In this document: piece after piece, positions 2,948 to 35,729 of the stretch | How positions within the stretch are numbered: the stretch's first letter is position 1 | How the letters are laid out: every line of letters begins with the position of its first letter | From: Erysipelotrichaceae bacterium | Lineage (GTDB): Bacteria > Bacillota_I > Bacilli_A > Erysipelotrichales > Erysipelotrichaceae | Assembly (NCBI GenBank): GCA_015058845.1 | Contig: SVBO01000008.1 | Span: 1-42,677 of the forward strand | Direction of reading: 5' to 3' | Length of the DNA stretch: 42,677 nt | The notes under the pieces: generated by a model | The model's database searches: none | What the model saw: only the letters and a program-made list of their open reading frames with translations | Told to the model about the DNA's origin: nothing | Translations under genes and position numbers: made by a program

Positions 2948-3718
2948 ATGCGTAAACTAAAATACCTAGTAATACTACTCATAGCATGGATATATATTCA
3001 AAGTACAATAGAACCATATCCAAGCATACCTGTGAGTCATCCTAATGAGAAGGTATCTTGGGGGATCGGGAAAGTGAAGGAAGAGAATGGGCAACCTAGA
3101 GATTGTGTAGAAGCGAATCATACATATACGGAATATGGAGCTACTTTCGTAGGGAGTAGTGAACCAATCATCTATCTAACATTCGATAATGGATATGAGA
3201 ATGGGAATACACATACGATCTTAGATATATTGAAGAGAGAGGATGTGCAGGCAGTATTCTTTGTAACGGGTGATTATGCTAGAGAAGAATATGATCTAAT
3301 TCAAAGAATGATCGAGGAAGGACATGGAATCGGAAACCATAGTTTCAAGCACTTGGAGTATGCTAGTATATCAAGTGAGAAACGAATAGAAGACCTTCAA
3401 AAGCTACATACCCTCATGGAGGAGAGGTATCACTATACCATGTCCCTATTCAGATTTCCTAAGGGTGAATACTCCATCGCAGCCCTACAAGATATCCATG
3501 CATCAGGATATCGAACATTGTTTTGGTCATTTGCCTACTATGATTACAATATCCAAGACCAACCCAGTAACACCACAGCACTCTCTAAACTAAACAGTGG
3601 ACTCCATCCAGGCGCTATCTATCTACTCCATGCAGTCTCTGATGCGAACATGAATGTACTCGAAGAATTTATACAAAGTGCGAAGGCTCAGGGATATACC
3701 TTTGCTCTTTGGGTGTGA
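2948..3718 (+). CDS. pdaA: PdaA-like polysaccharide deacetylase
   Basis: A carbohydrate esterase 4 (NodB fold) enzyme of 256 residues. The closest recognisable relative is PdaA, the N-acetylmuramate deacetylase that makes muramic delta-lactam in spore cortex. The motifs are LTFDNGYENG (77-86), with Asn81 where most CE4 enzymes have the second Asp, as in B. subtilis PdaA; the metal ligands in GNHSFKH (His131, His135); and RFPKGEYS in place of RPPxG. Residues 4-18 form an N-terminal hydrophobic segment, so the protein is membrane-anchored or secreted. The ribosome binding site AGAGGTGG precedes ATG 2948. It stands alone between two terminators. A role on spore or vegetative peptidoglycan cannot be settled from sequence. 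Confidence 0.85.
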   Translation: MRKLKYLVILLIAWIYIQSTIEPYPSIPVSHPNEKVSWGIGKVKEENGQPRDCVEANHTYTEYGATFVGSSEPIIYLTFDNGYENGNTHTILDILKREDVQAVFFVTGDYAREEYDLIQRMIEEGHGIGNHSFKHLEYASISSEKRIEDLQKLHTLMEERYHYTMSLFRFPKGEYSIAALQDIHASGYRTLFWSFAYYDYNIQDQPSNTTALSKLNSGLHPGAIYLLHAVSDANMNVLEEFIQSAKAQGYTFALWV

Positions 3719-3748
3719 ATGATGAAAGAAGCAGTTCTATTGGAAAAC

Positions 3749-3773
3749 AAGGTGTTCGAAAGAGCACCTTTTC
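3749..3773 (+). terminator. Intrinsic terminator after the deacetylase gene
   Basis: A 9-bp stem AAGGTGTTC/GAGCACCTT with a GAAA tetraloop and a short T-rich tail (TTTCT). Confidence 0.8.
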
Positions 3774-3829
3774 TACTACTAGAATTCTAATAAGTATTAA
3801 GCTATAATTTAAATAAAGAGGTGATCTGT

Positions 3830-4489
3830 ATGCATGTAGAGATTCCGAAAGTATTATTAGCACTAAGAGATCATACGATAGATACCTATCTAGAAGATGA
3901 GGAATACATCGAGGAAAAGTATCTCTGTGATATCCATCTACCTACAGGTAAGATCATAGCCAATGACCCATTATGTATGTATGAATTTCCTGTATTATCC
4001 AATACATTACTTCCCGGGAAATATCCAGTATATATCTACATACATCACATTCAAACAGATCAACGAGTTGCCTTTGCAGAGATCAGAATACAAGATACTC
4101 TACCCCAATATTATGAAGTAGCTGGAAACTATGGTGTAGACAGTGCTACAGGCTGTTACATGGATGCATCTCTAGCAGAGGTGTATAAAGACTATTCCAA
4201 AGAACAGGTAGAAAGTAGTTCACAAACACTCTCTACACTTCTAGAAGAAACCTATACCCATACCTATAGTACCTGTAACTATACCCTAGATACAGCCAAT
4301 ATCGTAGCCTTTTCAACTGGCTATGGAGATGGGGAATATACATGTTACTTTGGATATGATAGTAACCAAAAGATCTGTACTTTGATCACGTACTTCGATA
4401 CGTTAGAGGAGATAGAAGAAGTAGAAGCAATACAGATCAGTGAGGAAGAGAAACAAAGAATGATCTGTAAATATAAGTTAGAAAGATAG
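3830..4489 (+). CDS. DUF4241-family protein
   Basis: A 219-residue cytoplasmic protein without signal peptide or membrane helix. The segments YGVDSATGCYMD and FSTGYGDGEYTCYFGYD match my recollection of the DUF4241 signature (GVDxxxxCFMD, then SxGxGDGxYPxYWG). Its molecular role is not established; some family members sit in polymorphic-toxin or immunity loci. The frame opens with GTG at 3821, but AAAGAGGTGAT is placed for ATG 3830. A TATAAT box lies at 3803-3808. It is the first gene of a three-gene operon, with 12 bases to the next gene. Confidence 0.75.
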   Translation: MHVEIPKVLLALRDHTIDTYLEDEEYIEEKYLCDIHLPTGKIIANDPLCMYEFPVLSNTLLPGKYPVYIYIHHIQTDQRVAFAEIRIQDTLPQYYEVAGNYGVDSATGCYMDASLAEVYKDYSKEQVESSSQTLSTLLEETYTHTYSTCNYTLDTANIVAFSTGYGDGEYTCYFGYDSNQKICTLITYFDTLEEIEEVEAIQISEEEKQRMICKYKLER

Positions 4490-4501
4490 AGGATAAGAAT
4501 A

Positions 4502-5329
4502 ATGGCAGTCAGTGTAAGAATTGATTTTAAAGGAAAGAAGATCCCCAGTGTAGAAGAGATCGCAGCTCTTAAGGGATTAGAATATGGAGCAGCCGATCGT
4601 AATTACATGATGCATGGAGGAGAAATAGGAGATTACACGATCCTATGTGACCCACAGAGAGTAGGAAGAGGCTTTGAAGTCTATGTAGAAGATGATCAAT
4701 TATGCTTCAGTATATCATTACCGAATACACCCCATGATATCGAGTTATTCTATCAATTACTAGTAGAGATCTGTAAAGAATACAAGATCCCTAAGTTTAC
4801 AAGAGATAACGAAGAAGTATTACTGATCAGTGCCTTAGATTGTATCAGTATCGATATCCATACTTCTAAGAAGATCTTGAAAGACTTTGAAGCAAAGGTA
4901 AGAAACAAAGACCAAGAACTAGTATTATTATTTGGGGCCTATCATCCGATCTCTTTAGGAGAAAAGCAATTCGATGAGATCAAGGGAGAGCCTGCTAACT
5001 TAGAAGAACTTCTCAATAGACTACAACAAAAAGATTCTTACTATGTCAATCCACACTTATACCAGAAACAAGATGGAACAGTGTTTGGAGTCTATATGGT
5101 AGGAGATGAGGATACTTCTATCGTACCAACATACCCATATGTGATCTCAGCAGATAATGATATCGTAAGTGCTTGGTATGTAGCAATACCACCACTACAC
5201 ATGATCCCTTATGAACACTTCATCAAACATGTTCGTAAGGTAGAAGACTTTGATGAGAACCATATTATTATAGAATTAGACCAAGAAACGATCGACTATC
5301 TAGCAAAGAACTTTGCAGTAGAAATATAG
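4502..5329 (+). CDS. Hypothetical protein, possibly DUF4299 family
   Basis: A 275-residue soluble protein with no transmembrane segment and no catalytic motif that I recognise. It begins MAVSVRIDFKGKKIPSVEEI and ends in a hydrophobic and acidic alternation. The layout (short beta-rich start, then an LFYQLLVEICKEY helix) recalls the DUF4299 family, but this is a weak recollection that a profile search must confirm. AGAGGATAAG precedes ATG 4502. It lies 12 bases after the DUF4241 gene and 14 bases before the sulfatase, so the three are probably cotranscribed. Confidence 0.7.
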   Translation: MAVSVRIDFKGKKIPSVEEIAALKGLEYGAADRNYMMHGGEIGDYTILCDPQRVGRGFEVYVEDDQLCFSISLPNTPHDIELFYQLLVEICKEYKIPKFTRDNEEVLLISALDCISIDIHTSKKILKDFEAKVRNKDQELVLLFGAYHPISLGEKQFDEIKGEPANLEELLNRLQQKDSYYVNPHLYQKQDGTVFGVYMVGDEDTSIVPTYPYVISADNDIVSAWYVAIPPLHMIPYEHFIKHVRKVEDFDENHIIIELDQETIDYLAKNFAVEI

Positions 5330-5343
5330 AAGGGAGTGTTTCT

Positions 5344-6942
5344 ATGGCTAGACCCAATATCTTACTGATCACTACCGATCAACAACGCTTTGACACGATC
5401 CATGCCCATGGATATCCCCATATGCTCACAGAGAATCTAGATAGACTAGCAAGAGAGGGATGTAGCTGTGTAAACGCCTATTCACCTAATCCAGTATGTT
5501 TACCTGCTAGACATAATATCATTACAGGATTAAGTGCTAAGTATCATACCTTTGATGATAACTACTTCGATGATTCTCACCAGATCCCCTATGATCTACC
5601 TACCTTTGCCCAATGTCTATCAGATCAAGGATATGACACGATCGCTATCGGAAAGATGCACTTTCAACCGTATCGTAGACATAATGGATTCCATAGATTA
5701 TTACTCATGGATGAGATCCCACGCTTTAGAGAAGATGATGATTACGCATTGTATTTAAAAGACCATGGCTATGAACACTTACAAAGTATTCATGGAGTTA
5801 GACATATGTTATACATGCAACCACAACGATCTCTAGTAAGAGATGAAGATCATGGTTCTAGTTGGGTAGCTAGTGAAACTATCAAGTATTTAGAGAATAA
5901 ATCAAAAGATAAACCATTCATGATCTGGGCAGGCTTCATAGCCCCTCATCCTCCATTCGATGTACCAAGTAGCTATGCAGACCTATATAAAGATAGAAAT
6001 ATACCATTACCATTACAGTCTAAAACACCACTCTCTACCTTGGCAGAAGAGAATAAGAATATAGCAGACCATCCTAATACAGAAACACTCATGAGAGCTA
6101 GAGAATTATATTATAGTGCTATCTCATTCGTAGATCATAACGTAGGTAGGATCTTAGATAAGTTAGAAGAAATGGGTGAGTTAGATAATACATTCATTAT
6201 GTTTACAAGTGATCATGGGGAAATGTTAGGAGATATGGGAACTTACCAAAAGTTCTTACCATATGATGGTTCTAGCAAGATTCCAATGATCATACGCTAT
6301 CCTAAGCTAGTAGAGAAGAATAGTATCAAGAAAGAGTTCGTAGATCTCAATGATATATTCCCTACCTTCTTAGATGTAGCAGGGATCCACTATCCTGGTA
6401 AGATACAACTACCAGGAGCCTCTATTCTATCCAATGAGAAGGATCGATCCTATCAGTATATCGAACATCAACATGGAGCAAGACGTTGGTGTTGTATCAT
6501 CACAGAGGAATATAAGTATACGTACTATTATGGTGGCGGTAAGGAAGAGTTATACGATCGGATCCATGATCCATATGAGAGTGAGAACTTACTATATACG
6601 CACAAAGATGAGTATGAGGAAGTAAGAATAGATTTACGAAAGAAACTAATAGAATTAGAGAAGAGGTGGGGATTAGAAGGATGTATCGAGAACGATGATT
6701 TCAAGGTATATGAGGATTTCGAAATAAACTTCTATCGGGAAGCAAATCCACCATTCTTTCCATCTCATCTATCTAAAGAATATGAGAGAGAACAGTTATG
6801 GAGCTTAGAGAAAGAATTAGAAGAGGCTATTAAAGAGGAAGAAGTAGTAGATCTAAGAAAACTAGATCAAGAGTACTTTATTACTAGAAATATAGTTTCG
6901 AAAGAGAAGATCGATGAGATCTGTAAGAGAAGAAAACAATAG
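5344..6942 (+). CDS. Type I sulfatase (formylglycine-dependent), cytoplasmic
   Basis: A 532-residue sulfatase that would hydrolyse a sulfate ester (or phosphonate monoester) of unknown substrate. The N-terminal metal site starts PNILLITTDQQR. The maturation motif C-x-P-x-R is present as CLPAR at residues 52-56, so Cys52 should be converted to formylglycine. GKMHF and the later TSDHGEMLGD give further active-site and metal residues. No signal peptide is visible, so the substrate must be intracellular or imported. No anaerobic sulfatase-maturating radical-SAM enzyme occurs in this window, so it would have to be encoded elsewhere. AGGGAGTG precedes ATG 5344. It is the last gene of the DUF4241 operon. 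Confidence 0.88.
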   Translation: MARPNILLITTDQQRFDTIHAHGYPHMLTENLDRLAREGCSCVNAYSPNPVCLPARHNIITGLSAKYHTFDDNYFDDSHQIPYDLPTFAQCLSDQGYDTIAIGKMHFQPYRRHNGFHRLLLMDEIPRFREDDDYALYLKDHGYEHLQSIHGVRHMLYMQPQRSLVRDEDHGSSWVASETIKYLENKSKDKPFMIWAGFIAPHPPFDVPSSYADLYKDRNIPLPLQSKTPLSTLAEENKNIADHPNTETLMRARELYYSAISFVDHNVGRILDKLEEMGELDNTFIMFTSDHGEMLGDMGTYQKFLPYDGSSKIPMIIRYPKLVEKNSIKKEFVDLNDIFPTFLDVAGIHYPGKIQLPGASILSNEKDRSYQYIEHQHGARRWCCIITEEYKYTYYYGGGKEELYDRIHDPYESENLLYTHKDEYEEVRIDLRKKLIELEKRWGLEGCIENDDFKVYEDFEINFYREANPPFFPSHLSKEYEREQLWSLEKELEEAIKEEEVVDLRKLDQEYFITRNIVSKEKIDEICKRRKQ

Positions 6943-6949
6943 ACTTGTA

Positions 6950-6978
6950 TTGCAATATGACTTTAAAAGTCGTACACT
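6950..6978 (+). promoter_or_regulatory. Promoter of tdh-kbl with palindrome in the spacer
   Basis: TTGCAA (-35) and TACACT (-10) are 17 bases apart. The spacer holds the palindrome GACTT-TAA-AAGTC (6959-6971), where a repressor could sit. The pulA promoter has nearly the same hexamers (TTGCAT-17-TACACT). Confidence 0.5.
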
Positions 6979-7006
6979 TAATTAGGAAATAAAGGAGAGG
7001 TATTGT

Positions 7007-8074
7007 ATGAGTGAAATGATGTGGGCTTTAGTAAAAGAAAAAGCTGATAAAGGTTTGTGGTTAAAGAAAGTACCAGTACCTGTAACAGGTAAGAATGATG
7101 TGAAGATCAAGATCCATAAGACTAGTATCTGTGGTACAGATGTACACATCTATAACTGGAACCAATGGGCACAGAATACAATTCCAGTGGGATTAACTGC
7201 TGGTCATGAATATGTTGGTGAGATCGTAGAGATCGGTGAGAATGTAAAAGGATTCGAGATCGGTGAACTAGTAAGTGGTGAGGGACATATCGTTTGTGGT
7301 AAGTGTCGTAACTGTTTAGCAGGACAACCACATCTATGCCGTCATACACAAGGAGTAGGTGTAAATCGTAATGGAGCATTTGCTGAATATCTAGTAATTC
7401 CTGCTAGTAATGTATGGAGATGTTCTCCTAATGTCAGAGAAGAATTATACTCTTGCTTTGATCCACTAGGAAATGCCGTACACACAGCATTAACATATGA
7501 TATGATCGGAGAAGATGTACTGATCACTGGAGCTGGTCCGATCGGATGTATGGCAGCAGCGATCTGTCGCCATGTAGGAGCTCGTAATGTCGTGATCACT
7601 GATATGAATGAATATCGTTTGAACTTAGCAAAAGAGTTAGGTGCTACACGTACAGTCAATGTTAAGGAAGAAAACCTATTTGATGTTATGAAGGAACTAG
7701 GTATGAAGGAAGGTTTCGACGTAGGTCTTGAAATGTCTGGAGCACAATCTGGTTTCAATGATATGGTCAATACAATGAAGAATGGTGGTAAGATCGCTGT
7801 ACTAGGTCTTCAAAGAGCAGATGCTGTGATCAACTGGGAGAAAGTGATCTTCAATCAATTAAATATCAAGGGAATCTATGGTCGTCAAATGTGGGAAACT
7901 TGGTATAAGATGGATATGATGTTACAAAGTGGTCTAAATATTGATAAGATCATTACACATCGTTTCAAGGCACATGAATATGAGCAAGGTTTCGCTGCTA
8001 TGAATAGTGGTCTATCTGGTAAGGTAGTACTTGACTGGAGCGAGATGCATGACTGGGAGGGTAATCATGAATAA
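7007..8074 (+). CDS. tdh: L-threonine 3-dehydrogenase
   Basis: Oxidises L-threonine with NAD+ to 2-amino-3-ketobutyrate. A zinc medium-chain dehydrogenase of 355 residues, the usual family length. The catalytic zinc ligands are in ICGTD (Cys42) and GHE (His67-Glu68). The structural zinc site is formed by Cys97, Cys100, Cys103 and Cys111, and the Rossmann motif is [11 protein letters not shown]. It is encoded just ahead of and overlapping kbl, the partner that keeps the unstable ketoacid from decarboxylating. Ribosome binding site AAAGGAGAGG. The pair turns threonine into glycine and acetyl-CoA. Confidence 0.93.
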
Positions 8075-21343: not shown

Positions 21344-23215
21344 ATGCAAGAAGTATTTAAGACTTTCTTTGAAGGAACATGTTTAAATGCTTATGATCTC
21401 TTTGGAATGCATAAGGAAGGAGATGGTATCCGTTTTACGGTATATGCTCCTAATGCGTATGCAGTGTATTTGGTAGGAGATTTCAATCACTGGAACAATC
21501 ATAGAATGGATAAGATCGATCGTAGAGGGATCTATTCTACGGTAATACATAATGCCAAGGAATATGATAACTATAAGTATCGTATCGAAACACAAGAACA
21601 TGTTTTCTTAGATAAAGCAGATCCATATGCAGTATTCAGTGAAGTACGTCCTAAGACTGCTTCTAAGGTATATAACATAGAAGGGTTTAATTGGAGTGAT
21701 AAGGTATATCTAAATAAGAGAAATCGTCAGTTCGATAAACCTATGAATATCTATGAACTACATCTAGGTTCATGGAAGAGAAAGAAAGATGTAGTAAGAA
21801 CAGAAGATCCCGATGATCCAGATGTAACTGCTACATACCATACATATGAGGAAATGATCGATATTCTAATTCCATATATCACTAAGATGGGATACAGTCA
21901 TATCGAGTTATTACCACTCGCAGAACATCCATTTGATGGAAGTTGGGGATATCAAGATACAGGATATTACTCTGCTACTTCTCGTTATGGAACACCTAGA
22001 CAACTCATGAAATTGATCAATGCTTGTCATAAAGCAGGGATCGGTGTCATTATGGACTTCGTACCAGTACACTTTGTACAAGATGCGCATGGGTTAGCTA
22101 TGTTTGATGGGGGTTGTGTGTATGAATACTATAATGAGTATGATCGATATAGTGAGTGGGGTACTTCTAACTTTGATCTTTGGAGAGAGTCTGTACGTAG
22201 TTTCTTAATGTCTGCTGTAAACTTCTGGATCGAGGTATACCATGTAGATGGTATTCGTTTCGACGCTGTGTCTAATGTGATCTATTGGCGTGGTAAGAAG
22301 GATCTAGGGATCAATGGTGGAGCAGTAGATTTCATTCGTAGAGTGAATACTATGATCCATGAGAAGCATCCAGAGATCATGATGATCGCTGAGGATAGTA
22401 GTGATTATCAAGGGGTTACTAAGGCGGTAGAAGAGGGTGGATTAGGCTTTGATTATAAGTGGGATCTAGGTTGGATGAATGATACTCTTAGATATTATTC
22501 TATGGATCCTTACTTTAGAGGAAAACATCACCATATGCTTACCTTCTCTATCCTGTATTTCTTCAGTGAGAACTTCATTATGCCATTCTCTCATGATGAA
22601 GTAGTTCATGGTAAGAAAACGATCGTAGATAAGATGTGGGGTACCTATGAACAGAAGTTTGCGCAAGCACGTAACCTATATCTATACATGATGACACACC
22701 CAGGAAAGAAATTAAACTTCATGGGGAATGAATTAGGTATGTTGATGGAATGGAGCGAGAAGAAGTCTTGTGACTGGAACTTATTAGAGTATCCTAAGCA
22801 TCAAGCATTCCATAGATATATCAAAGATCTGAATATGATCTATCGCTATCATAAGGCCTTCCATGTACTGGATTATAGTTATGATGGATTTGAATGGATC
22901 GATGCAGATAATACTACTCAAAGTATCTATGTATATGAACGTAAATACAAACGAGATCACTTTGTAGTAGTATTGAATATGACACCACTTTCTTATGAAA
23001 CATATCGTGTAGGAGTGCCAAGAGAGGGTATATATATGGAACTGATCAATAGTGAAAAGGATATCTATGAGGGATGTAACATGTGTAACTATGAACCAGT
23101 AGAAAGTGAAGCTATACCAGCGCATCATAGAAATCATTCTATCAAGATCCGTGTAGCTCCATTTAGTGGTATCATCTTCCAATATATGCCAAGTAGTAAG
23201 AAGAATAAGGAGTAA
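21344..23215 (+). CDS. glgB: 1,4-alpha-glucan branching enzyme
   Basis: Makes alpha-1,6 branches in glycogen (GH13). 623 residues: an N-terminal CBM48 module (about 25-115, FTVYAPNAYAVYLVGDFNHW), the GH13 barrel, and a C-terminal beta domain. The catalytic residues are Asp307 (IRFDAVSN), Glu350 (MIAED) and transition-state Asp418 (SHDEVVHGKK). The protein lacks the extra N1 domain of E. coli GlgB, as is common in Firmicutes. Probably cotranscribed with pgcA. Confidence 0.95.
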   Translation: MQEVFKTFFEGTCLNAYDLFGMHKEGDGIRFTVYAPNAYAVYLVGDFNHWNNHRMDKIDRRGIYSTVIHNAKEYDNYKYRIETQEHVFLDKADPYAVFSEVRPKTASKVYNIEGFNWSDKVYLNKRNRQFDKPMNIYELHLGSWKRKKDVVRTEDPDDPDVTATYHTYEEMIDILIPYITKMGYSHIELLPLAEHPFDGSWGYQDTGYYSATSRYGTPRQLMKLINACHKAGIGVIMDFVPVHFVQDAHGLAMFDGGCVYEYYNEYDRYSEWGTSNFDLWRESVRSFLMSAVNFWIEVYHVDGIRFDAVSNVIYWRGKKDLGINGGAVDFIRRVNTMIHEKHPEIMMIAEDSSDYQGVTKAVEEGGLGFDYKWDLGWMNDTLRYYSMDPYFRGKHHHMLTFSILYFFSENFIMPFSHDEVVHGKKTIVDKMWGTYEQKFAQARNLYLYMMTHPGKKLNFMGNELGMLMEWSEKKSCDWNLLEYPKHQAFHRYIKDLNMIYRYHKAFHVLDYSYDGFEWIDADNTTQSIYVYERKYKRDHFVVVLNMTPLSYETYRVGVPREGIYMELINSEKDIYEGCNMCNYEPVESEAIPAHHRNHSIKIRVAPFSGIIFQYMPSSKKNKE

Positions 23216-23220
23216 TAAGT

Positions 23221-23249
23221 ATAGCCATTGTGAAGAACACAATGGCTAT
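23221..23249 (+). repeat. Perfect 12-bp inverted repeat between glgB and the MazG-like gene
   Basis: ATAGCCATTGTG and CACAATGGCTAT flank AAGAA. The RNA hairpin would be very stable, but the next bases are GTTGTATG rather than a T tract. It could be a terminator of unusual type, an mRNA 3'-end stabiliser for pgcA-glgB, or an operator. Confidence 0.7.
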
Positions 23250-23280
23250 GTTGTATGATAATATAAAGGAGTAATGTATA

Positions 23281-23607
23281 ATGAGTGATTTTACAGTCAA
23301 TGAGATGTTAGAGATGCAACGTCTTCTACAGGATAAGTATAAGGATAAGTGGGAAGGTATTTCTAGAGAGATTGGGAAGAATAAGCTATTATGGATGATC
23401 GGTGAGATCGGAGAGGTGATCGATATTATTAAGAAGCATGGGGATGATGTGCCTTGTGAGGATAGTGAGCTGAGAGCTTCTTTGATCGAGGAGATGGCAG
23501 ATGTGTTGATGTATTACAATGATGTGTTGTTATGTTATGGGATCACTTCTGAGGAGTTAAAGGATACGTATACTAAGAAATTCCATAAGAATATGAATAG
23601 ATGGTAA
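23281..23607 (+). CDS. MazG-like nucleotide pyrophosphohydrolase
   Basis: A 108-residue all-alpha NTP pyrophosphohydrolase-like protein. GEIGEVIDIIKK and EEMADVLMYYND give the ExxE...ExxD metal motif of the MazG/dUTPase-alpha superfamily. It is single-domain, unlike the two-domain E. coli MazG. Such proteins clean up non-canonical nucleotides; the substrate cannot be told here. AAGGAG precedes ATG 23281. Confidence 0.8.
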   Translation: MSDFTVNEMLEMQRLLQDKYKDKWEGISREIGKNKLLWMIGEIGEVIDIIKKHGDDVPCEDSELRASLIEEMADVLMYYNDVLLCYGITSEELKDTYTKKFHKNMNRW

Positions 23608-23610
23608 GGA

Positions 23611-23640
23611 AAATGGACAGGGTGACCTGTCCATTTATTT
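23611..23640. terminator. Bidirectional terminator between convergent genes
   Basis: An 11-bp stem AAATGGACAGG/CCTGTCCATTT under a GTGA tetraloop, with TTTATTT on the plus side and a weaker T run on the minus side. It lies between the MazG-like gene and the convergent XRE gene. Confidence 0.85.
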
Positions 23641-23664
23641 CTCTATGCCTAGTACATATATGTA

Positions 23665-24294
23665 CTATTGCTCCTGATCTATATTCTCTATTCTACAAGA
23701 TCCATTACGGAATATAAAGTAATCTTCGATCTTGGCTAACAATACATTCGCATCATTATATTGTTCTACTTGCACATGGTCTGCTATGAATTGATTTCCT
23801 CCAGCAGATAAGATCCGATATTGATCATCATACGATACAGTGTACGTATAGGTCTCTTCCTCTAATGTACATGTGATCTGGGTACTACTAGCAGATGTCC
23901 CCTCACTACTCTTAATACTTGTAAAGGATGCGAAGGCTAATATATACAGTATCATAGAGATCACTAGAAAGGAAAGGATCCCGATCAGGATATTCCTCCA
24001 CATACGTCTTTTATCTCTACTTTGTTTAGCTAGTTGCTCATTGAGAATAGCTAGTTGCTTCACGATCTCTTCATTCGTATTTACTCCAGTATCCTCTATG
24101 ATCGTACTACCTAATAACTCACTCACAGACACCTCAAACACATCTGCGATCTTCTCTAACATCTCTGCATCTGGTACAGAGTAACCTTTCTCCCACTTTG
24201 AAATAGTTTGCCGTACGACATTCAACTGGGTAGCCAGTGTATCTTGTGAATACCCCTTTTTCTTACGTAATATCCTTATATTCTCACTTAACAT
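23665..24294 (-). CDS. Membrane-anchored XRE-family transcriptional regulator
   Basis: A 209-residue protein with an N-terminal Cro/C1-type helix-turn-helix (about 5-60, KKGYSQDTLATQLNVVRQTISKWEKG), a charged linker (75-100), one transmembrane helix (about 101-124) and an outward-facing C-terminal domain of about 85 residues. The C-terminal part is beta-rich (CTLEEETYTYTVSYDDQYRI) and resembles no domain I can name. Many Firmicutes carry HTH-TM regulators of this form; a link to signal sensing at the membrane is inference. GGAGGTATAGGT precedes the start. Confidence 0.85.
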   Translation of the reverse strand: MLSENIRILRKKKGYSQDTLATQLNVVRQTISKWEKGYSVPDAEMLEKIADVFEVSVSELLGSTIIEDTGVNTNEEIVKQLAILNEQLAKQSRDKRRMWRNILIGILSFLVISMILYILAFASFTSIKSSEGTSASSTQITCTLEEETYTYTVSYDDQYRILSAGGNQFIADHVQVEQYNDANVLLAKIEDYFIFRNGSCRIENIDQEQ

Positions 24295-24311
24295 ACCTAT
24301 ACCTCCTTACA

Positions 24312-24345
24312 AGATCAGTATATCTAAGATCTCTTATTGCGGTAA
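24312..24345 (-). promoter_or_regulatory. Promoter and possible autoregulatory operator of the XRE gene
   Basis: On the minus strand TTACCG (24340-24345) and TATACT (24317-24322) are 17 bases apart. The inverted repeat AGATC-N11-GATCT (24312-24332) brackets the -10 box, a position suited to self-repression. The -35 match is weak. Confidence 0.4.
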
Positions 24346-24355
24346 GCAATGCACA

Positions 24356-24862
24356 TTAACATTTCCTAATTCTCGTACAATAATGCTTCTCATCCTCATG
24401 ATGGATATACGCCCCATTCTTGATCATTACCCGTAAAGAAGCTGGATTATCCTTATTCACAGACATATAGATCTCATCTTCTGGAATGATCCCCCAAGCA
24501 AGCTCTATTGCCAAGGCTAAGCCCTTAGTCCCATATCCCTTACCACGATGTAGAGGATGTATACCATACCCAATATGACCAGCCCCATGACGGAGCACAT
24601 CATTTAAATAATGACGAATACGGAATAGACCCACAATCTCCTCCCCATCCCATAAGAAATATTCTGTAGAAGGAACATGACCCTCAGGAAGTTCGATCCC
24701 TAAAGACTTATGAATATACCTAGGTAGCACAACACGCTCAAACTCTTCTCTACTCACTCCAAAGTCTCTATTCAAGAACCCATTCTCATCTTTAGGTAAA
24801 CTAGCCATATACGCATATTCCTTCTCAACATCTTCCAAGTTCGCAGCCTTTAAATACAACAT
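24356..24862 (-). CDS. GNAT-family N-acetyltransferase
   Basis: A 168-residue acetyltransferase using acetyl-CoA. The pyrophosphate-binding loop is HRGKGYGTKG (about 105-114), followed by the helix LALAIELAW; NPASLRVMIKNGA is the usual C-terminal motif. GHIGYGIHP is the beta-4 strand. The substrate is unknown. The start is supported by a GGGGGGAT ribosome binding site. It lies upstream of the XRE gene on the same strand, 61 bases away, with a separate promoter for each. Confidence 0.85.
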   Translation of the reverse strand: MLYLKAANLEDVEKEYAYMASLPKDENGFLNRDFGVSREEFERVVLPRYIHKSLGIELPEGHVPSTEYFLWDGEEIVGLFRIRHYLNDVLRHGAGHIGYGIHPLHRGKGYGTKGLALAIELAWGIIPEDEIYMSVNKDNPASLRVMIKNGAYIHHEDEKHYCTRIRKC

Positions 24863-24888
24863 ACCTATCCCCCCTACACTTTACAGTA

Positions 24889-24917
24889 AGTATACGATAG
24901 CGATCCCTTGAAAGCAA
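24889..24917 (-). promoter_or_regulatory. Promoter of the GNAT gene
   Basis: On the minus strand TTGCTT (24912-24917) and TATACT (24889-24894) are 17 bases apart. It faces away from the glgP promoter in the same 161-base gap. Confidence 0.6.
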
Positions 24918-24970
24918 CATAAATAGAGTATCGAAATGCACTAGAAAACGCACTTTCCATCATAGTTTCA

Positions 24971-24999
24971 TTGACTTTGTTGAGGAAGTAAAATAAAAT
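24971..24999 (+). promoter_or_regulatory. Promoter of glgP
   Basis: TTGACT (five of six) and TAAAAT (five of six) with a 17-base spacer. The leader is about 18 bases and holds the GGAG ribosome binding site. Confidence 0.7.
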
Positions 25000-25023
25000 T
25001 AAAGAACAGACTGGAGTGATATA

Positions 25024-27423
25024 ATGTTTTCTAATAAAGAAGGATTCAAGAAAGAGTATGAACGCCATATGGCAGAAGAATATGGTCGTAGCCTAGAACT
25101 CTCACATATTACAGAGAAGTACATGGTACTAGGAAAGATGATCAGAGAGTATGCCGCTATCCACTGGAAAGAAACTAGAACTAAGGTAGCGAAACAAGGA
25201 CTAAGACAAGTACATTATTTCTCTATGGAATTCTTGATGGGAAGATTAATGACGAATAATCTAATGAACCTAGGGATCTATGATATCGTGAAAGAAGGAT
25301 TGAATGACCTAGGGATCGATCTAAATGAATTAGAAGACTTAGAAAGCGATGCAGGACTTGGAAATGGTGGTCTAGGAAGACTTGCAGCATGCTTCATGGA
25401 CTCCCTAACATCTCTGGATTATCCTGGTACAGGGAATAGTATCCGTTATCAATATGGTTTCTTTAAACAAAAGATCGAGAATGGATATCAAGTAGAAGTA
25501 CCTGATCAATGGTTAAAGTATGGTAACGTATGGGAAGTAAAGAAACCTAAGCTTGCAGTAGATGTATGTTTCTGGGGAAGAGTAGAGATGTACATGGACC
25601 ATAAGGGGAAACTAAAAGCAAATCATATTGACTGTGAAAGAGTACGTGCTGTACCATATGATGTACCTATTGCAGGATGTCAGAACAATGTAACGAATAC
25701 ATTACGTCTATGGTCTGCTGAACCAAGTGAAACACTACCTAACAAAGAGTTCCGTCAATATTTAAGTGAAGTCAATGAGATCTGTATGAACCTATATCCA
25801 AATGATACAGTAGAATCAGGAAAGTACCTACGCTTAAAACAACAATACTTCTTTGTAGCCGCTGGTCTAGCAGCCCTAGTAGATGCTCACTTACGTGTAT
25901 ATCCTAGTATGGATAACTTCTGGGAAAAGAATATCATTCAATTAAATGATACACATCCAGTACTAGTGATCCCTGAACTAATGCGTATTCTCATGGACCA
26001 ATTCGAATATGAATGGGATGACGCATGGAACCAAGTAACTAAGTGTGTAGCTTACACGAACCATACAGTATTAAGTGAAGCGCTAGAGAAATGGCCAACA
26101 GAATATATCCAGAAACTATTACCACGTATCTATATGATCATTGAAGAGATCAACCGTCGTCATGTATTAGACCTAAGATCTCGTGGCATCTCTCAAGAAG
26201 CAGTATCTTCTATGATGATCATTAAGGATGGTCTAGTATATATGGCTAACCTAGCGATCGTAGCTAGTACTTCTGTCAATGGTGTAGCAGCCTTACATAC
26301 AGAGATCTTGAAGAAAGATGTTATGAAGAACTTCTATGAGATCTATCCGCAAAAGTTCAATAACAAGACAAATGGGGTAACACATAGAAGATGGTTGTTA
26401 TATACAAACCCACAATTAGTATCTCTATTGGATAATACGATCGGAGAAGACTATAAGAAAGATCCAGATCGTTTAGAAGATCTAATGGCATATATTGATA
26501 ACAGGGATGTTCAAGAAGCATTCTTACAAGTGAAGAGACAACGTAAAGAGATCTTAGCGAAATATATCAAAGATACATTGAATATTGAAGTAGATGTAGA
26601 TTCTATCTTCGATGTGCAAGCGAAACGTCTACATGCGTATAAGAGACAATTACTGAACTGTATGCATATTATTTATCTATACAATCAGTTCAAGAAGGAT
26701 CCTAACTTCACAATGCCTAAGAGAACATTTATCTTCTCTGCCAAGGCAGCTCCTTCTTATTACTTTGCAAAGTGTGTAATTAAGTTGATCAACTCTTTAA
26801 GTGAAACGATCAACAATGATCCAGTAGTATCTAAGTATATGAAGGTCGTATTTATTCCTAACTATAGTGTAAGTGTAGCAGAGATCTTGTTGAATGCTGC
26901 GGATGTTAGTGAGCAGATCTCTACGGCTGGTAAGGAAGCTAGTGGTACTGGTAATATGAAGTTCATGATGAATGGGGCTATTACTTTAGGTACATTGGAT
27001 GGTGCGAATGTAGAGATCTCTGAGCGTGTGGGTAGAGAGTACTGTGAGATCTTTGGTATGACTGCGGATGAGGTAGATGCTCTTCGTAAGAGTGGTATGT
27101 ATGATGTTTGGAAGTATTATGCAGATGATAGAGACTTACAAGAAGTGTTAGATCGTTTAAATATGACACCATTTACTACAAATGTGCAAGAGTTTAGAAG
27201 TATCTTTGATGAATTGATGTATCATAATGATGAGTACTTCTTATTAGCAGATTTCCAAGCCTATGTTGCAGCACAAAGAAGAGTGGCTGAACGTTATCAA
27301 GATCGTTATGGTTGGGCTAAGATGTGCTTGGTGAATATTGCTAAGAGTGGTTATTTCTCAACGGATAGAACGATCACTCAATATGCAGAAGAGATCTGGC
27401 ATCTTGAGAAAGTAAAAGTATAG
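25024..27423 (+). CDS. glgP: Glycogen phosphorylase
   Basis: Releases glucose 1-phosphate from the non-reducing ends of glycogen or maltodextrin. A 799-residue GT35 enzyme of normal bacterial length. The active-site glycine loop is DAGLGNGGLGRLA, and the PLP lysine is Lys646 in the motif EASGTGNMKFMMNG. Regulatory N-terminal extensions of the eukaryotic enzymes are absent. It stands as a single-gene unit between its own promoter and terminator, which is unusual against the glgBCDAP operon of Bacillus. Confidence 0.95.
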   Translation: MFSNKEGFKKEYERHMAEEYGRSLELSHITEKYMVLGKMIREYAAIHWKETRTKVAKQGLRQVHYFSMEFLMGRLMTNNLMNLGIYDIVKEGLNDLGIDLNELEDLESDAGLGNGGLGRLAACFMDSLTSLDYPGTGNSIRYQYGFFKQKIENGYQVEVPDQWLKYGNVWEVKKPKLAVDVCFWGRVEMYMDHKGKLKANHIDCERVRAVPYDVPIAGCQNNVTNTLRLWSAEPSETLPNKEFRQYLSEVNEICMNLYPNDTVESGKYLRLKQQYFFVAAGLAALVDAHLRVYPSMDNFWEKNIIQLNDTHPVLVIPELMRILMDQFEYEWDDAWNQVTKCVAYTNHTVLSEALEKWPTEYIQKLLPRIYMIIEEINRRHVLDLRSRGISQEAVSSMMIIKDGLVYMANLAIVASTSVNGVAALHTEILKKDVMKNFYEIYPQKFNNKTNGVTHRRWLLYTNPQLVSLLDNTIGEDYKKDPDRLEDLMAYIDNRDVQEAFLQVKRQRKEILAKYIKDTLNIEVDVDSIFDVQAKRLHAYKRQLLNCMHIIYLYNQFKKDPNFTMPKRTFIFSAKAAPSYYFAKCVIKLINSLSETINNDPVVSKYMKVVFIPNYSVSVAEILLNAADVSEQISTAGKEASGTGNMKFMMNGAITLGTLDGANVEISERVGREYCEIFGMTADEVDALRKSGMYDVWKYYADDRDLQEVLDRLNMTPFTTNVQEFRSIFDELMYHNDEYFLLADFQAYVAAQRRVAERYQDRYGWAKMCLVNIAKSGYFSTDRTITQYAEEIWHLEKVKV

Positions 27424-27432
27424 GTAAGTAAG

Positions 27433-27461
27433 CTTCGTGGATCTCCACGGAGTTTTCTTTT
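27433..27461 (+). terminator. Intrinsic terminator after glgP
   Basis: CTTCGTGG pairs with CCACGGAG (one G-U) around ATCT, followed by TTTTCTTTT. The T run merges into the -35 box of the next gene. Confidence 0.85.
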
Positions 27462-27488
27462 GACGTATTCTATGGTAAAATATAGAAT
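27460..27488 (+). promoter_or_regulatory. Promoter of the MATE exporter gene
   Basis: TTGACG and TAGAAT, each five of six to consensus, 17 bases apart, immediately after the glgP terminator. Confidence 0.7.
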
Positions 27489-27511
27489 TGTAATGGATAG
27501 GAGGGATAGAT

Positions 27512-28828
27512 ATGAGTCAATGGAATGAGTTAAGACCTCATGTTCAACAAGTATGGAAACTCAGTCTACCTGCTATCCTCTCTCAGATCACAACGATCGC
27601 TATGCAGTATATTGATTCTGCTATGGTAGGAAATCTAGGAGCGAATGCCTCTGCGGCTATTGGACTAGTTTCTACTACTACATGGTTATTGAGTGGTATT
27701 ACCTATGCAGTAACAGCAGGGTTCTCTGTACAAGTGGCGCATCAGATCGGAGCTAAGCAAGAGAGAGAAGCTAGAGATATCGTGAAGCATGGTCTTTTGA
27801 CTGCTTTGATCGTATCTGGTCTATTATGTATATTTGGTATATTGATCGCTACCCCTCTTCCTATTTGGTTGGGAGGAGAAGAAGTACTACATCATGATGC
27901 TACAGCCTATTTCTTTGTATTTGCTTGTATGCTACCATTCTCTCAGCTCAATTCACTCACATCCTCTTTCTTACAATGTAGTGGAGACATGGTCACACCT
28001 AGTATCTTGAATGCTATGATGTGTGTATTAGACGTGATCTTCAATTCCTTCTTTATTCCTAGATATGGTGTATTAGGAGCAGGGATCGGTACTGCGCTTG
28101 CTTGTGTTGTGATCAGTGTATTAATGTTCTATTGTTGTTGTGTTCGTAACAGTAGTTTGCGATTACATAGAAATGAGAAGACTATGTTTAGTAGTTTGAT
28201 TCTAGCTAAAGCATGGAAGATCGGTGTACCTGTAGCAGTACAAGAGATCGCTATGTGTGGAGCTATGGTAGTGTCTACCATGATCATCGCGCCATTAGGG
28301 GCTATTGCGATCGCAGCCCATTCCTTTGCGATCACTGCCGAGAGTTTATGTTATATGCCAGGCTATGGTATTGGTTCCGCAGCTACTACATTAGTAGGTA
28401 GAAGTGTGGGAGCTAAGGAGATGAAGTTAGCTAAGAGATATGGGAATATATGTACAGCCATGGGAGGGATCTTCATGGGAGTGACAGGGATCCTGATGAT
28501 GTTCCTATGTCCCCTAGTATTCTCACTATTGACACCTGATCCAGCCGTACAAACACTTGCGATCCAAGTATTACGCATTGGTCTATTAGCAGAACCATTA
28601 TATGGCGTATCGATCGTAGCGGCAGGAGCACTTCGAGGAGCAGGGGATACGCTTGTACCAAGTCTTATGAACCTAGCAAGTATCTGGGGCGTACGTTTAG
28701 TCCTTGCCTATTTCTTAGTAGAGTCTATGGGACTACATGGTGTATGGATCGCCATGGCAGTAGAGTTATGTGTAAGAGGTCTATTGATGTTGTATCGACA
28801 GAAGACTTCTCGATATTATAGTATCTAG
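27512..28828 (+). CDS. MATE-family multidrug or metabolite exporter
   Basis: A 438-residue membrane protein with twelve predicted helices in two repeats. It begins LRPHVQQVWKLSLPAILSQI, followed by MQYIDSAMVGNLG, the typical first-helix motif of MATE transporters. The second half opens in the same way (WKIGVPVAVQEIAMCGAMV). These proteins export cationic drugs or metabolites in exchange for Na+ or H+; the substrate is unknown. GATAGGAGGGAT precedes ATG 27512. Single-gene unit. Confidence 0.9.
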   Translation: MSQWNELRPHVQQVWKLSLPAILSQITTIAMQYIDSAMVGNLGANASAAIGLVSTTTWLLSGITYAVTAGFSVQVAHQIGAKQEREARDIVKHGLLTALIVSGLLCIFGILIATPLPIWLGGEEVLHHDATAYFFVFACMLPFSQLNSLTSSFLQCSGDMVTPSILNAMMCVLDVIFNSFFIPRYGVLGAGIGTALACVVISVLMFYCCCVRNSSLRLHRNEKTMFSSLILAKAWKIGVPVAVQEIAMCGAMVVSTMIIAPLGAIAIAAHSFAITAESLCYMPGYGIGSAATTLVGRSVGAKEMKLAKRYGNICTAMGGIFMGVTGILMMFLCPLVFSLLTPDPAVQTLAIQVLRIGLLAEPLYGVSIVAAGALRGAGDTLVPSLMNLASIWGVRLVLAYFLVESMGLHGVWIAMAVELCVRGLLMLYRQKTSRYYSI

Positions 28829-28835
28829 TATATAG

Positions 28836-28860
28836 GGTCTATTCTATGAATAGGCCTTTT
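28836..28860 (+). terminator. Intrinsic terminator after the MATE gene
   Basis: GGTCTATTC pairs with GAATAGGCC (one T-G) around TAT, followed by TTTTC. Confidence 0.75.
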
Positions 28861-28870
28861 CTAATTCCTT

Positions 28871-28906
28871 TAGGAAATTGCATTTAAACCTTTCCTATGG
28901 TACACT
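28871..28906 (+). promoter_or_regulatory. pulA promoter with inverted repeat around the -35 box
   Basis: TTGCAT (28878-28883) and TACACT (28901-28906) are 17 bases apart. TAGGAAA (28871-28877) and TTTCCTA (28891-28897) form a perfect 7-base inverted repeat with a 13-base centre that begins exactly at the -35 box. This is a good place for a repressor or activator dimer. Confidence 0.5.
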
Positions 28907-28933
28907 ATACATATCTATTAAAGGGGTAATATC

Positions 28934-30985
28934 ATGGAGACTGCATGTGCATATTTAGATAATTATAAGGAAATACGTATAGAGATCGCTAAGCATTTCT
29001 ATGAAGGAGAGAGCAAAGCATTCTATGTATCTTTACAAAGTGGGGAACTCAAAGAACTAAGTGTATTACGTAAGAGTAGAGAGAGTGATAAGGTAGTATA
29101 TACAGTAAGAGCCTTCCCATCCTTACAGATCGGTACAGCCTATGAGATCGTAGAAGAACATGGATATCGTTTCCCATTACAGTATCGTTATATTGTACGA
29201 GAAGGGAAATTTGATCGTGAATTTAGTTACCATGAGGAAGATCTAGGAGTCACTTATCGCAAAGAACATACACAATTTAAAGTATGGGCTCCTACGGCCT
29301 CTACCATGATCTTATGCCTAGAGAAAGAATATTACCCAATGCAACGAGGCGAAAAGGGTGTATATAGTGTAGATATTTCTAAAGATACAGCCCTATATGA
29401 ATACCACTACCTAGCCCAAGTCAATGGAAAGTGGGTAGAGAGTGTAGATCCATATGCTAAAGGAAGCACGATCAACTCTAAACGAAGTGTTGTGATCCCT
29501 CCAAGTAACGTCCAAGTAGAAAGACATACACCACAAGTAGATAGTTGTGTACCCGTGATCTATGAAGTCAGTGTACGTGACTTCACATCCTCCCTAAGAA
29601 ATACCCATCGCTCTACTTTCAAAGGCTTCATCAGTGAAGACCTACGTACCAATAACAAACAAATAGCAGGCTTCGACTACTTAAAAAGCCTAGGCATCAC
29701 TCATGTCCAATTCATGCCGATCTATGATTTCTATACAGTAGATGAAGAGTATAAATTTAAGTTCTATAACTGGGGCTATGATCCTATTCAGTATAATATT
29801 CCAGAGGGAAGTTACTCCTCAGATCCATTAGATCCATTAGCAAGGATCATTGAATGTAAACAAATGATCGAAGCATGTCACAAAGAGAATATGTATGTAG
29901 TCATGGATGTGGTATATAACCATATGTATAACAAAGATCTATCTTCCTTTGAGAAACTAGTTCCTTACTATTATTTCCGTATGAATCGTGCGGGAGAGTA
30001 TTCTAATGGTTCTTTCTGTGGAAATGATTTTGATAGTACTAGAGAAATGGCTCGTGCTTATATTGTAAATAGTGTTAAGATGTGGATGAGTGAGTATAAT
30101 GTAGATGGCTTTAGATTTGATCTAATGGGCATCATAGATATCGATACGATGAAGGAGATCACTCGTCAATGTCGTGCTATGAAACCGAATTGCTTGATCT
30201 ATGGAGAGGGTTGGAATATGCCTACGATGTTAGAGGAACAACGTAGATCGAATATGTTGAATGCGTATCAATTACCACAAGTAAACTTCTTCAATGATTC
30301 TTTCAGAGATATCGTGAAGGGTAAAACGAGTGAGGGAGAGAGTGGTGTTAGGGGATATCTGACTGGGGATATTTCGTATATCGAAGAGATGAAACATGTG
30401 TTACTAGGAAATACTAGTTCTCGCTTATTCACATCTCCTATGCAATCGATCAATTATGTAGAATGTCATGACAATGCTACGGCATATGATAAGGTCAAAA
30501 TGTGTTTATATTATGAGGGAGAAGAGAACTGGAAGAAGAGATGTAAGTTATTGATCTCGGCTGTATTATTAGCCCAGGGGATCCCATTCTTACATGCTGG
30601 TCAAGAATTCTTACGTACTAAGAATATGGCACATAACACATATAATTCCTCTGATAGTATCAATACACTAGACTATGAACGTAAAGATAAATATCAAGAT
30701 GTAGTAGATTTCACGAAAGAATTGATCAAGTTCAGGAAGAATACCGTAGGCTTTACGAAACAGGAGTATCATGATATCGAGAAGGATATCAAGTGTCTAG
30801 ATATGGGAAATGGTGTGCTAGCCTACCAAGTAGTAGCAGGGGATCAGGTATATACAACGTACTTTAATCCTACTGAGGGTTCTTATCAATTACCACACTA
30901 TGAGCAATGTATTTTAAGTAGTGATGGTGTATGGGATCAGTATATCCCTCCTATTTCGATGTGTATCACAATGTCTTATCAGTAA
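28934..30985 (+). CDS. pulA: Type I pullulanase (glycogen debranching)
   Basis: Hydrolyses alpha-1,6 branch points, here probably of glycogen limit dextrins because no signal peptide is present. 683 residues: an N-terminal region to about 100, CBM48 (about 105-190, TQFKVWAPTAS), the GH13 barrel and a C-terminal beta domain. The type I pullulanase signature YNWGYDP is at 278-284. Catalytic residues are Asp396 (FRFDLMG), Glu425 (YGEGW) and Asp513 (ECHDN). AAGGGG precedes ATG 28934. Together with GlgP it completes glycogen breakdown; no glgX-type gene is in the window. Confidence 0.94.
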   Translation: METACAYLDNYKEIRIEIAKHFYEGESKAFYVSLQSGELKELSVLRKSRESDKVVYTVRAFPSLQIGTAYEIVEEHGYRFPLQYRYIVREGKFDREFSYHEEDLGVTYRKEHTQFKVWAPTASTMILCLEKEYYPMQRGEKGVYSVDISKDTALYEYHYLAQVNGKWVESVDPYAKGSTINSKRSVVIPPSNVQVERHTPQVDSCVPVIYEVSVRDFTSSLRNTHRSTFKGFISEDLRTNNKQIAGFDYLKSLGITHVQFMPIYDFYTVDEEYKFKFYNWGYDPIQYNIPEGSYSSDPLDPLARIIECKQMIEACHKENMYVVMDVVYNHMYNKDLSSFEKLVPYYYFRMNRAGEYSNGSFCGNDFDSTREMARAYIVNSVKMWMSEYNVDGFRFDLMGIIDIDTMKEITRQCRAMKPNCLIYGEGWNMPTMLEEQRRSNMLNAYQLPQVNFFNDSFRDIVKGKTSEGESGVRGYLTGDISYIEEMKHVLLGNTSSRLFTSPMQSINYVECHDNATAYDKVKMCLYYEGEENWKKRCKLLISAVLLAQGIPFLHAGQEFLRTKNMAHNTYNSSDSINTLDYERKDKYQDVVDFTKELIKFRKNTVGFTKQEYHDIEKDIKCLDMGNGVLAYQVVAGDQVYTTYFNPTEGSYQLPHYEQCILSSDGVWDQYIPPISMCITMSYQ

Positions 30986-30988
30986 AAC

Positions 30989-31013
30989 AGGCAACTCATT
31001 TGAGTTGCCTTTT
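30989..31013. terminator. Bidirectional terminator between pulA and the MGMT-like gene
   Basis: AGGCAACTC pairs with GAGTTGCCT around ATTT, with TTTT on one side and AAAA on the other, so it can serve both converging genes. It touches the stop codon of the minus-strand gene. Confidence 0.85.
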
Positions 31014-31311
31014 AATTCCCATTCCATGTATGCTTCATAAGATCTACATTCCCATTCTTTCTGAACGTGATCCCCTCATCACACAACAATTCTCTTTGCT
31101 CTTGCCACCCAGGCACCAATCTACCCTGACAATTCACCACACGATGACAAGGATACTCCCCAAAGAAACCCGCCATACTCATGACTCTACCCACTAAACG
31201 AGAGTTCTTAGGTCTACCGATCAAGGCCGCGATCTGTCCATAAGTAGCTACTTTCCCACAAGGGATCTCACTGACTACCGCCAAGATCTCATATATTAAT
31301 TCCTCATTCAT
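31012..31311 (-). CDS. Single-domain MGMT-family alkyltransferase-like protein
   Basis: A 99-residue protein equal to the C-terminal DNA-binding domain of O6-methylguanine-DNA methyltransferase. IPCGKVATYGQIAALIGRPKNSRLVG is the helix-turn-helix with the arginine finger, and PCHRVV holds the alkyl-acceptor Cys55. Proteins of this size are usually alkyltransferase-like (Atl) with Trp in place of the cysteine and no transfer activity. Here the cysteine is kept, so it may be a minimal methyltransferase. The stop codon of the upstream PNPOx-like gene lies 1 base before the ATG, indicating coupling. Confidence 0.85.
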   Translation of the reverse strand: MNEELIYEILAVVSEIPCGKVATYGQIAALIGRPKNSRLVGRVMSMAGFFGEYPCHRVVNCQGRLVPGWQEQRELLCDEGITFRKNGNVDLMKHTWNGN

Positions 31312-31312
31312 A

Positions 31313-31795
31313 CTACTTCCCTACCAATTCTATCGCTTGCTTACCACTGATCTCCTTGATATCTACACGCACAATCGCTACATTTGCAAGATGATCTTGG
31401 ATCTCCTTCTCTCCCTCTATCACATAGCTAGGAGAATACTTCTTAACTAATAAACGAAGCGCATGAATGACCTTATCACTATCCACTACCACAGAAGCCA
31501 CCCCAAACCCGATCACACTACGGAAATAACTAGTAAACTTCTCTTCCACGATATCCTCCTGATCGATCACACAGAAAGACACCCTAGGATCATACTGTAA
31601 CACATCCCACTTATGCCCCACTCTAGCACAATGGAAATAGAAATGATCCTCCTCTACCACATAATTCACAGGCACCACATACGGAAACTCCTCATCACCC
31701 TTCATACCCAAGGTAACAGTGATCCCCCTCTTCATAATATCTATAACCTCATTACTACTTAACAATTGCTTAGATCTACGCATAGAATACCTCAT
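31313..31795 (-). CDS. PNPOx-fold flavin-binding protein (NimA-like)
   Basis: A 160-residue split-barrel protein of the pyridoxamine 5'-phosphate oxidase-like superfamily, closest in pattern to NimA-type proteins: RRSKQLLSSNEVIDIMKRGI, then PYVVPVNYVVEEDHFYFHCARVGHKWD. The HCAxxGHK motif binds the flavin phosphate in this group. Such proteins reduce flavin-accessible substrates, sometimes 5-nitroimidazoles; the native substrate is unknown. The frame opens at 31813, but GAGGTGG lies at the right distance from the ATG at 31795. Cotranscribed with the MGMT-like gene. Confidence 0.82.
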   Translation of the reverse strand: MRYSMRRSKQLLSSNEVIDIMKRGITVTLGMKGDEEFPYVVPVNYVVEEDHFYFHCARVGHKWDVLQYDPRVSFCVIDQEDIVEEKFTSYFRSVIGFGVASVVVDSDKVIHALRLLVKKYSPSYVIEGEKEIQDHLANVAIVRVDIKEISGKQAIELVGK

Positions 31796-31852
31796 ACAGA
31801 CCACCTCAAACATAGAATATCACAGTAAATCTCTCACATACAATACTTATTA

Positions 31853-31881
31853 TTAATTTAAAGGTAACTTCGTGGTATAAT
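31853..31881 (+). promoter_or_regulatory. Promoter of the solute-binding lipoprotein gene
   Basis: A perfect TATAAT at 31876-31881 with a weak TTAATT 17 bases upstream. The ribosome binding site GGAG follows 10 bases later. Confidence 0.55.
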
Positions 31882-31902
31882 ACTAGAAATGGAGTGTGGA
31901 AT

Positions 31903-33330: not shown

Positions 33331-33331
33331 A

Positions 33332-33357
33332 AACAGGCACTTATATAAGTGCCTGTT
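33332..33357. terminator. Perfect palindrome terminator between converging genes
   Basis: A 26-base perfect palindrome (each half AACAGGCACTTAT). The T tract is on the minus strand (TTTTT after the stem), so it serves ung better; the plus side has only ACTCTTT. It overlaps the ung stop codon. Confidence 0.85.
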
Positions 33358-34033
33358 ACTCTTTATTCGGTAATTGCCAATCAATAGGAGTTTCCCCATT
33401 CTCTATTAAATAGGTATTTGCTTTAGAGAAATGCTTACAACCAAAGAAACCATTATAAGCAGATAATGGACTTGGATGGGCAGCAGTTAATACTAAGTGC
33501 TTAGGGTTATTCAGTAATGCTTGCTTATCCTTTGCATTTCTACCCCATAGTAAGAATACCACAGGACCATCCTTCTCATTCAGTAATGAAATGATCTTAT
33601 CCGTCAAGATCTCCCATCCCTTCCCCTTATGAGAATTCGCAGCACCTTCTCTAACTGTTAGTACAGTATTGAGAAGTAATACACCCTGCTTAGCCCAAGT
33701 CGTTAATTCTCCATGGTCTGGGATCGTGATCCCTACATCTTGCACCTGTTCCTTAAAGATATTCACTAGACTAGGAGGCGCTTGTACACCCTTCTTCACA
33801 GAGAAACATAAGCCATGGGCTTGATTAGGACCATGGTAAGGATCCTGTCCTAAGATCACGATCTTCGTATCTTGATAAGAAGTATACTTTAAAGCATTAA
33901 AGATATCATACATATTTGGATAGATCGTCTTTGTATTATATTCCTCTACTAGAAACTTACGGATCTCTTGATAGTATTCCTTCTCAAACTCATCCTTCAA
34001 TAACGCATCCCAATCATTTCCCATATGTACCAT
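33356..34033 (-). CDS. ung: Uracil-DNA glycosylase, family 1
   Basis: Excises uracil from DNA as the first step of base-excision repair. 225 residues, normal length. The catalytic motif is [14 protein letters not shown], with Asp as the water-activating residue, and HPSPLS is the DNA minor-groove loop. The start at 34033 follows GAGGTG by 5 bases; a second ATG lies three codons in. Convergent with the solute-binding gene and divergent from folC. Confidence 0.96.
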
Positions 34034-34055
34034 ACTAACACCTCATTTCTAGTAT

Positions 34056-34084: not shown

Positions 34085-34146
34085 GAAAAGGATACTGAAA
34101 GTACAAAGATGTGTTACAATACCTATACGAATAAAGGAGTGATACC

Positions 34147-35723: not shown

Positions 35724-35729
35724 GAAAAC

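Follow-up and report, generated by a model that had tools for sequence, protein, structure and literature searches.

Three open reading frames lie in a row on the + strand near the start of the window, the whole 42,677-nucleotide stretch that was analysed, which belongs to a draft genome of 1.75 Mb assembled in 64 contigs. They occupy 3821/3830-4489, 4502-5329 and 5344-6942, and these coordinates bear out the same-strand arrangement with gaps of 12 and 14 bases described in an earlier note on this DNA. In a profile scan, IspD and deacetylase genes precede the trio and Tdh-like and Kbl-like genes follow it. The features of the locus are:

3749..3770, + strand: terminator-like hairpin with a 9-bp stem and a GAAA loop, downstream of the deacetylase gene and ahead of the trio
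3803..3808, + strand: TATAAT, a perfect -10 hexamer with a poor -35
3830..4489, + strand: DUF4241 protein, 219 aa, predicted immunity-type (PF14025, 1.7e-28; neighbourhoods of homologues)
4502..5329, + strand: DUF4299 protein, 275 aa, possible immunity-type (PF14132; homologues with DUF7832)
5344..6942, + strand: predicted cytoplasmic Cys-type S1 sulfatase, 532 aa, with a C-terminal extension conserved in its clade (Pfam, alignment)
5497..5511, + strand: codons of the C-L-P-A-R maturation motif, with Cys52

The ATG at 3830 is the likely start of the DUF4241 frame, because the GTG at 3821 falls within a GAGGTG Shine-Dalgarno stretch. The hairpin at 3749-3770, which the earlier note does not mention, sets the trio apart from the upstream deacetylase gene; the segment 3742-3785 folds with an MFE of -14.5 kcal/mol (z -4.84), and the T-run after the hairpin is short. 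As the earlier note had stated, no terminator-like site lies on the + strand inside the trio; the scan of 3600-7100 returned two such sites, both on the - strand and in a number at chance level. The -10 region that was said to be shared by the three genes is present as the TATAAT at 3803-3808, but its claim to be a promoter is weak, because the -35 is poor and the consensus scan of 3600-7100 gave promoter-like sites at a level not above chance (9 versus 13.7 expected), the TATAAT not among them. Together, the hairpin and the hexamer are compatible with a transcription unit beginning just before 3830, and judging from the sequence the three genes are probably co-transcribed. No strong hairpin was found in the 64 bases 3' of the sulfatase gene (z -0.45), so the transcript may continue into tdh and kbl. 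The GC content of the three genes (0.368-0.373) is close to that of the window (0.381) and thus gives no sign of recent import. In the one other genome of the genus that was compared, the only match was a weak one (24% identity), to the Kbl-like protein.

The product of 5344-6942 carries a Sulfatase domain (PF00884, 3e-54, over its cut-off) and an SGSH_C domain (PF16347, 4.5e-22), and the CLPAR motif reported earlier is indeed encoded at 5497-5511; the domain and the C-x-P-x-R motif place the protein among the S1 formylglycine sulfatases. C-[LI]-P-A-R-H-N is present in 9/9 aligned sulfatase homologues, which also have further long conserved blocks and the C-terminal extension in common. The N-terminus reads MARPNILLITTDQQR, and no hydrophobic leader is visible by eye in any of the nine aligned homologues, supporting the earlier assignment of a cytoplasmic enzyme devoid of a signal peptide. 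The own genome holds a single gene with a strong match to the sulfatase profile. With S1 sulfatases that combine PF00884 and SGSH_C the protein shares the catalytic domain, the C-x-P-x-R motif and a maturase in the genome; the NCBIfam model closest to it is the PRK13759 arylsulfatase and the closest solved chain is 7oz8. It differs in having no visible signal peptide, and it scores below the curated cut-offs of the named subfamilies (327.9 of 481 bits for PRK13759). Among the neighbours of its eight close homologues are two ADP-ribosylglycohydrolase genes, two LacI regulators, PTS EIIA domains and ABC permeases. The occurrence of sugar kinase, LacI, PTS or ABC sugar/nucleoside transporter genes in these neighbourhoods hints that the substrate could be a sulfated sugar or nucleoside, a reasonable guess and no more. 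A literature search on sulfatases and maturases of Erysipelotrichaceae returned nothing.

A maturase gene is located elsewhere in the genome. The one anSME gene lies on contig C21 (3008-4105), with an E-value of 1.8e-101 and 338.8 bits, slightly under the curated cut-off of 349.45, while its SPASM and Radical_SAM domains are over their cut-offs. The earlier remark that neither a maturase nor a glycosidase is nearby therefore stands for the maturase, which is on another contig, but not for glycosidase-type genes, since GlgB, phosphorylase and pullulanase-like genes of glycogen type are found in the window, 14-24 kb away. The glycogen-type genes (GlgB-like, phosphorylase, pullulanase-like) extend across 21344-39938, with ORFs judged by eye to be GlgC/GlgD/GlgA-like at 36238-39938. 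The neighbours of the C21 maturase are M18 aminopeptidase, PfkB and SIS genes; the maturase gene faces the PfkB kinase and the SIS-domain gene (L064:3008-5916), which we take to resemble a fructosamine-type pair.

In three of the eight loci of close sulfatase homologues an anSME gene adjoins the sulfatase gene: the two are convergent at L058, and the order is anSME-PfkB-sulfatase at L061 and anSME-sulfatase at L063, with overlapping genes. An anSME match of at least 280 bits is present in 8/9 genomes bearing a sulfatase homologue versus 24/106 others (Fisher p 1.3e-4, uncorrected for kinship and with a threshold set after the scores were seen); G084, which has a sulfatase homologue, gave no maturase match. 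The recurrent partner of this sulfatase clade is anSME, not the DUF genes, and the sulfatase itself is predicted to be an ordinary cytoplasmic S1 sulfatase with a remote maturase. Cys52 would probably be converted to formylglycine by the single anSME of the genome, from C21, and the matured enzyme would then split the sulfate ester of an imported small molecule.

We compared a family sample of 115 genomes and a class sample of 395 genomes, each including the own genome. Close sulfatase homologues (53-78% identity) are found in eight other family genomes, DUF4299 relatives in 14 and DUF4241 profile matches in five (four over the cut-off), and all three genes occur together in no other genome among the 115. 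A sulfatase homologue is accompanied by a DUF4299 relative in G093 and by a short DUF4299 profile match in G033, in both cases on separate contigs. At the class level, DUF4299 is present in 12/395 and DUF4241 in 5/395 genomes, with both in G266, again on separate contigs. A six-frame profile search covered 8 sulfatase-homologue loci, 22 DUF4299 loci and 85 DUF4241 loci (80 from scanned contigs and five from genomes). DUF4241 or DUF4299 was found near the sulfatase homologues at 0/8 loci, DUF4299 near DUF4241 at 0/85, and a sulfatase or DUF4241 near DUF4299 at 0/22. The pairing of DUF4241 with sulfatases envisaged earlier came down to one of the 85 DUF4241 loci (L133), where a fragment of a different sulfatase sits at the locus end, about 6.5 kb from DUF4241. 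Because many of the assemblies are drafts and the sequence flanking a locus usually spans 5-10 kb, in some cases less, more distant linkage may exist. The three genes form a local neighbourhood rather than a conserved system.

These results bear directly on the proposal that the three genes form a single functional unit, with the DUF proteins assisting or regulating the sulfatase. The short gaps, the common strand, the uninterrupted + strand and the hairpin that separates the trio from the upstream gene all speak for such a unit. The trio nevertheless recurs in none of the other family genomes, the very outcome that the earlier note had named as refuting it, its three profiles never meet in the loci examined, and the sulfatase homologues pair with anSME instead. 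We therefore give the functional unit very little credence.

The DUF4241 protein of the window is a divergent member of its family, with 26-35% identity. A scan of genome contigs provided 80 DUF4241 loci of 144 related ones, falling into 24 groups by DNA similarity; as 51 of the 80 share one element, counting by locus would distort the picture, and each group was therefore represented by a single locus. Within 3 kb of the 24 independent loci there are 145 ORFs, among which ABC transporter parts and AAA domains are the commonest families, followed by SUKH (4), SUFU (3), DUF7832 (3), two each of Imm33, DUF5713, DUF1266, DUF4253 and UPF0167, and methyltransferases and further small families. The neighbour tallies of the DUF4241, DUF4299 and sulfatase sets all cover the first 25 families listed, so that isolated immunity genes of the control sets may be hidden beyond them; among the first 25 around the sulfatase homologues (67 ORFs), none of those immunity families appears. 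Ten DUF4241 neighbours picked by eye comprise PoNi (L112), two SUKH (L110, L174), a SUFU+DUF7832+Imm33 protein (L114), DUF1266, DUF4253, DUF5713, DUF4176 (L108), one NADAR and one protein without a match. In the family genomes, Imm51, DUF5713 and DUF4259 lie by the DUF4241 locus L072, and SUKH and DUF4274 by L075. PoNi and Imm51 have their immunity naming from Pfam; we take UPF0167, DUF1266, DUF4253, DUF5713, DUF4259, DUF4274 and DUF6630 to be immunity-type and DUF4176 to be T7SS-linked. SUKH, SuFu and Imm33 are named as immunity families in the parts of PMC3482391 consulted, which describe polyimmunity loci. DUF4241 homologues thus recur in the company of immunity genes (80 loci in 24 independent groups), and this context makes DUF4241 a fairly well supported predicted immunity family. 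A DUF4241-DUF6630 fusion forms one 714-aa open frame in Atopobium sp. oral taxon 810 (L152:6407-8548).

A structure model of the DUF4241 protein, built with 30 sequences (pTM 0.71), retrieved no Foldseek match at E <=0.001, the best E-value being 0.062. In VIA-align, ranks 1-28 are mostly UTRA, plus DUF98 and chorismate lyase, with Z of 4.4-6.2, above unrelated rows. DUF4241 could on this ranking be a small-molecule binder with a UTRA/chorismate-lyase fold, for example a sugar-phosphate sensor, that might belong with carbohydrate genes. However, the modelled resemblance is weak and below the level for claiming a fold (Z <8), and the homologues sit in immunity arrays, not beside sugar genes; we regard a binder of this kind as improbable. 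No immunity protein was recognised in the structure-match list, which excludes nothing. Neither DUF protein of the window had a sequence match in the PDB, and DUF4241 and DUF7832 were not named in the literature searched, where a single paper names DUF4299.

The second protein, uncharacterised in the earlier note, was identified by profile search as DUF4299 (PF14132, 5.5e-8, 33.3 bits versus a cut-off of 31). In three near homologues with 46%, 34% and 27% identity (L065, L066, L068), the second domain is DUF7832, which is joined to SUFU and Imm33 in another protein (L114). The 12.4-kb contig of the 46% homologue also carries LHH nuclease toxin and SUKH_5 genes, at least 5 kb from the homologue. 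In describing the two proteins as having no known role, the earlier note had missed the immunity-gene context of the one and the DUF7832 fusion and toxin/SUKH contig of the other. By contrast, housekeeping genes dominate the 143 ORFs around 21 DUF4299 loci, with no immunity families among the first 25 families listed, so an immunity role for DUF4299 rests on the domain fusion and one contig. These same neighbourhoods would suit a stand-alone household protein, leaving only DUF4241 immunity-type, but the DUF7832 partnership and the toxin and SUKH genes on the nearest homologue's contig make this rather unlikely. The observations on DUF4299 are mixed, and we consider it an only moderately supported candidate immunity family. 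A DUF4299 gene of C. jejuni is located within a T6SS effector region, for which the authors, in the part of PMC8285248 consulted, speculate on an adaptor role. The AlphaFold model of DUF4299 alone is poor (pLDDT 49.9). Four paralogous genes, none with a Pfam match above the cut-off, are distributed on the two sides of the nearest DUF4299 homologue (L065:5863-10152). Short DUF4299 remnants at L194 and L195 (G212:C45 and G306:C19), whose open frames span 132 and 121 aa and of which one match has an internal stop, sit among ORFs of equal sizes and order in two related genomes.

We lean, with modest confidence, towards an orphan immunity-type pair (DUF4241 and DUF4299) placed by chance in front of a cytoplasmic S1 sulfatase that depends on a maturase, the three genes probably being co-transcribed without forming one unit. 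The DUF4241 and DUF4299 proteins would each act by binding, and so neutralising, a toxin that neighbouring bacteria deliver. More tentatively, DUF4241 and DUF4299, the latter with its partner domain DUF7832, may be two undescribed immunity families against contact-delivered toxins, making an orphan defensive pair in a gut bacterium without a recognised T7SS. Searches of the own genome for LXG, WXG100 and SUKH-1, each positive in at least one control genome, gave no match, and therefore no own producer system was found. The flanking genes encode IspD, the deacetylase and the Tdh-like and Kbl-like proteins; with no toxin gene adjacent and no LXG or WXG100 in the genome, the DUF pair would be an orphan.

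The pair shares with the polyimmunity loci described in the parts of PMC3482391 consulted same-strand neighbours, small gaps, unrelated immunity-type families and no toxin between them, but it comprises only two genes, and DUF4241 and DUF4299 were not found in those parts by Pfam accession. With acquired interbacterial defence and orphan immunity, as covered in the parts of PMC12247911 consulted, it has in common immunity-type genes and no producer system found in the genome. That work concerns Bacteroidales and the T6SS, whereas in the window protection is only predicted, and the recombinase that a recombinase-associated acquired interbacterial defence cluster would carry beside its immunity genes was not recognised among the flanking genes scanned.

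The proposed new sulfatase system is thereby removed, and two families of unknown function gain a testable role. If the immunity reading is true, orphan immunity would reach a gut bacterium that has a small genome and no recognised T7SS toxins of its own. The anSME-tied clade would represent a cytoplasmic sulfatase whose substrate, a sulfated sugar or nucleoside, is only guessed at.

Other settings for the three proteins were also considered and rejected. For an anti-phage role, PADLOC gave no match to any of them. For a viral source of DUF4241, no match was confirmed in viral contigs. For plasmid carriage, DUF4299 had no match and DUF4241 eight distant plasmid records. The 51-locus DUF4241 group, represented by L117, has a relaxase gene together with DUF5713, Imm51 and DUF4259 neighbours as in L072. 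It is found in many gut Clostridia, in Holdemania and in one Sutterella MAG, and may represent a mobile element that is widespread and carries immunity-type genes as cargo.
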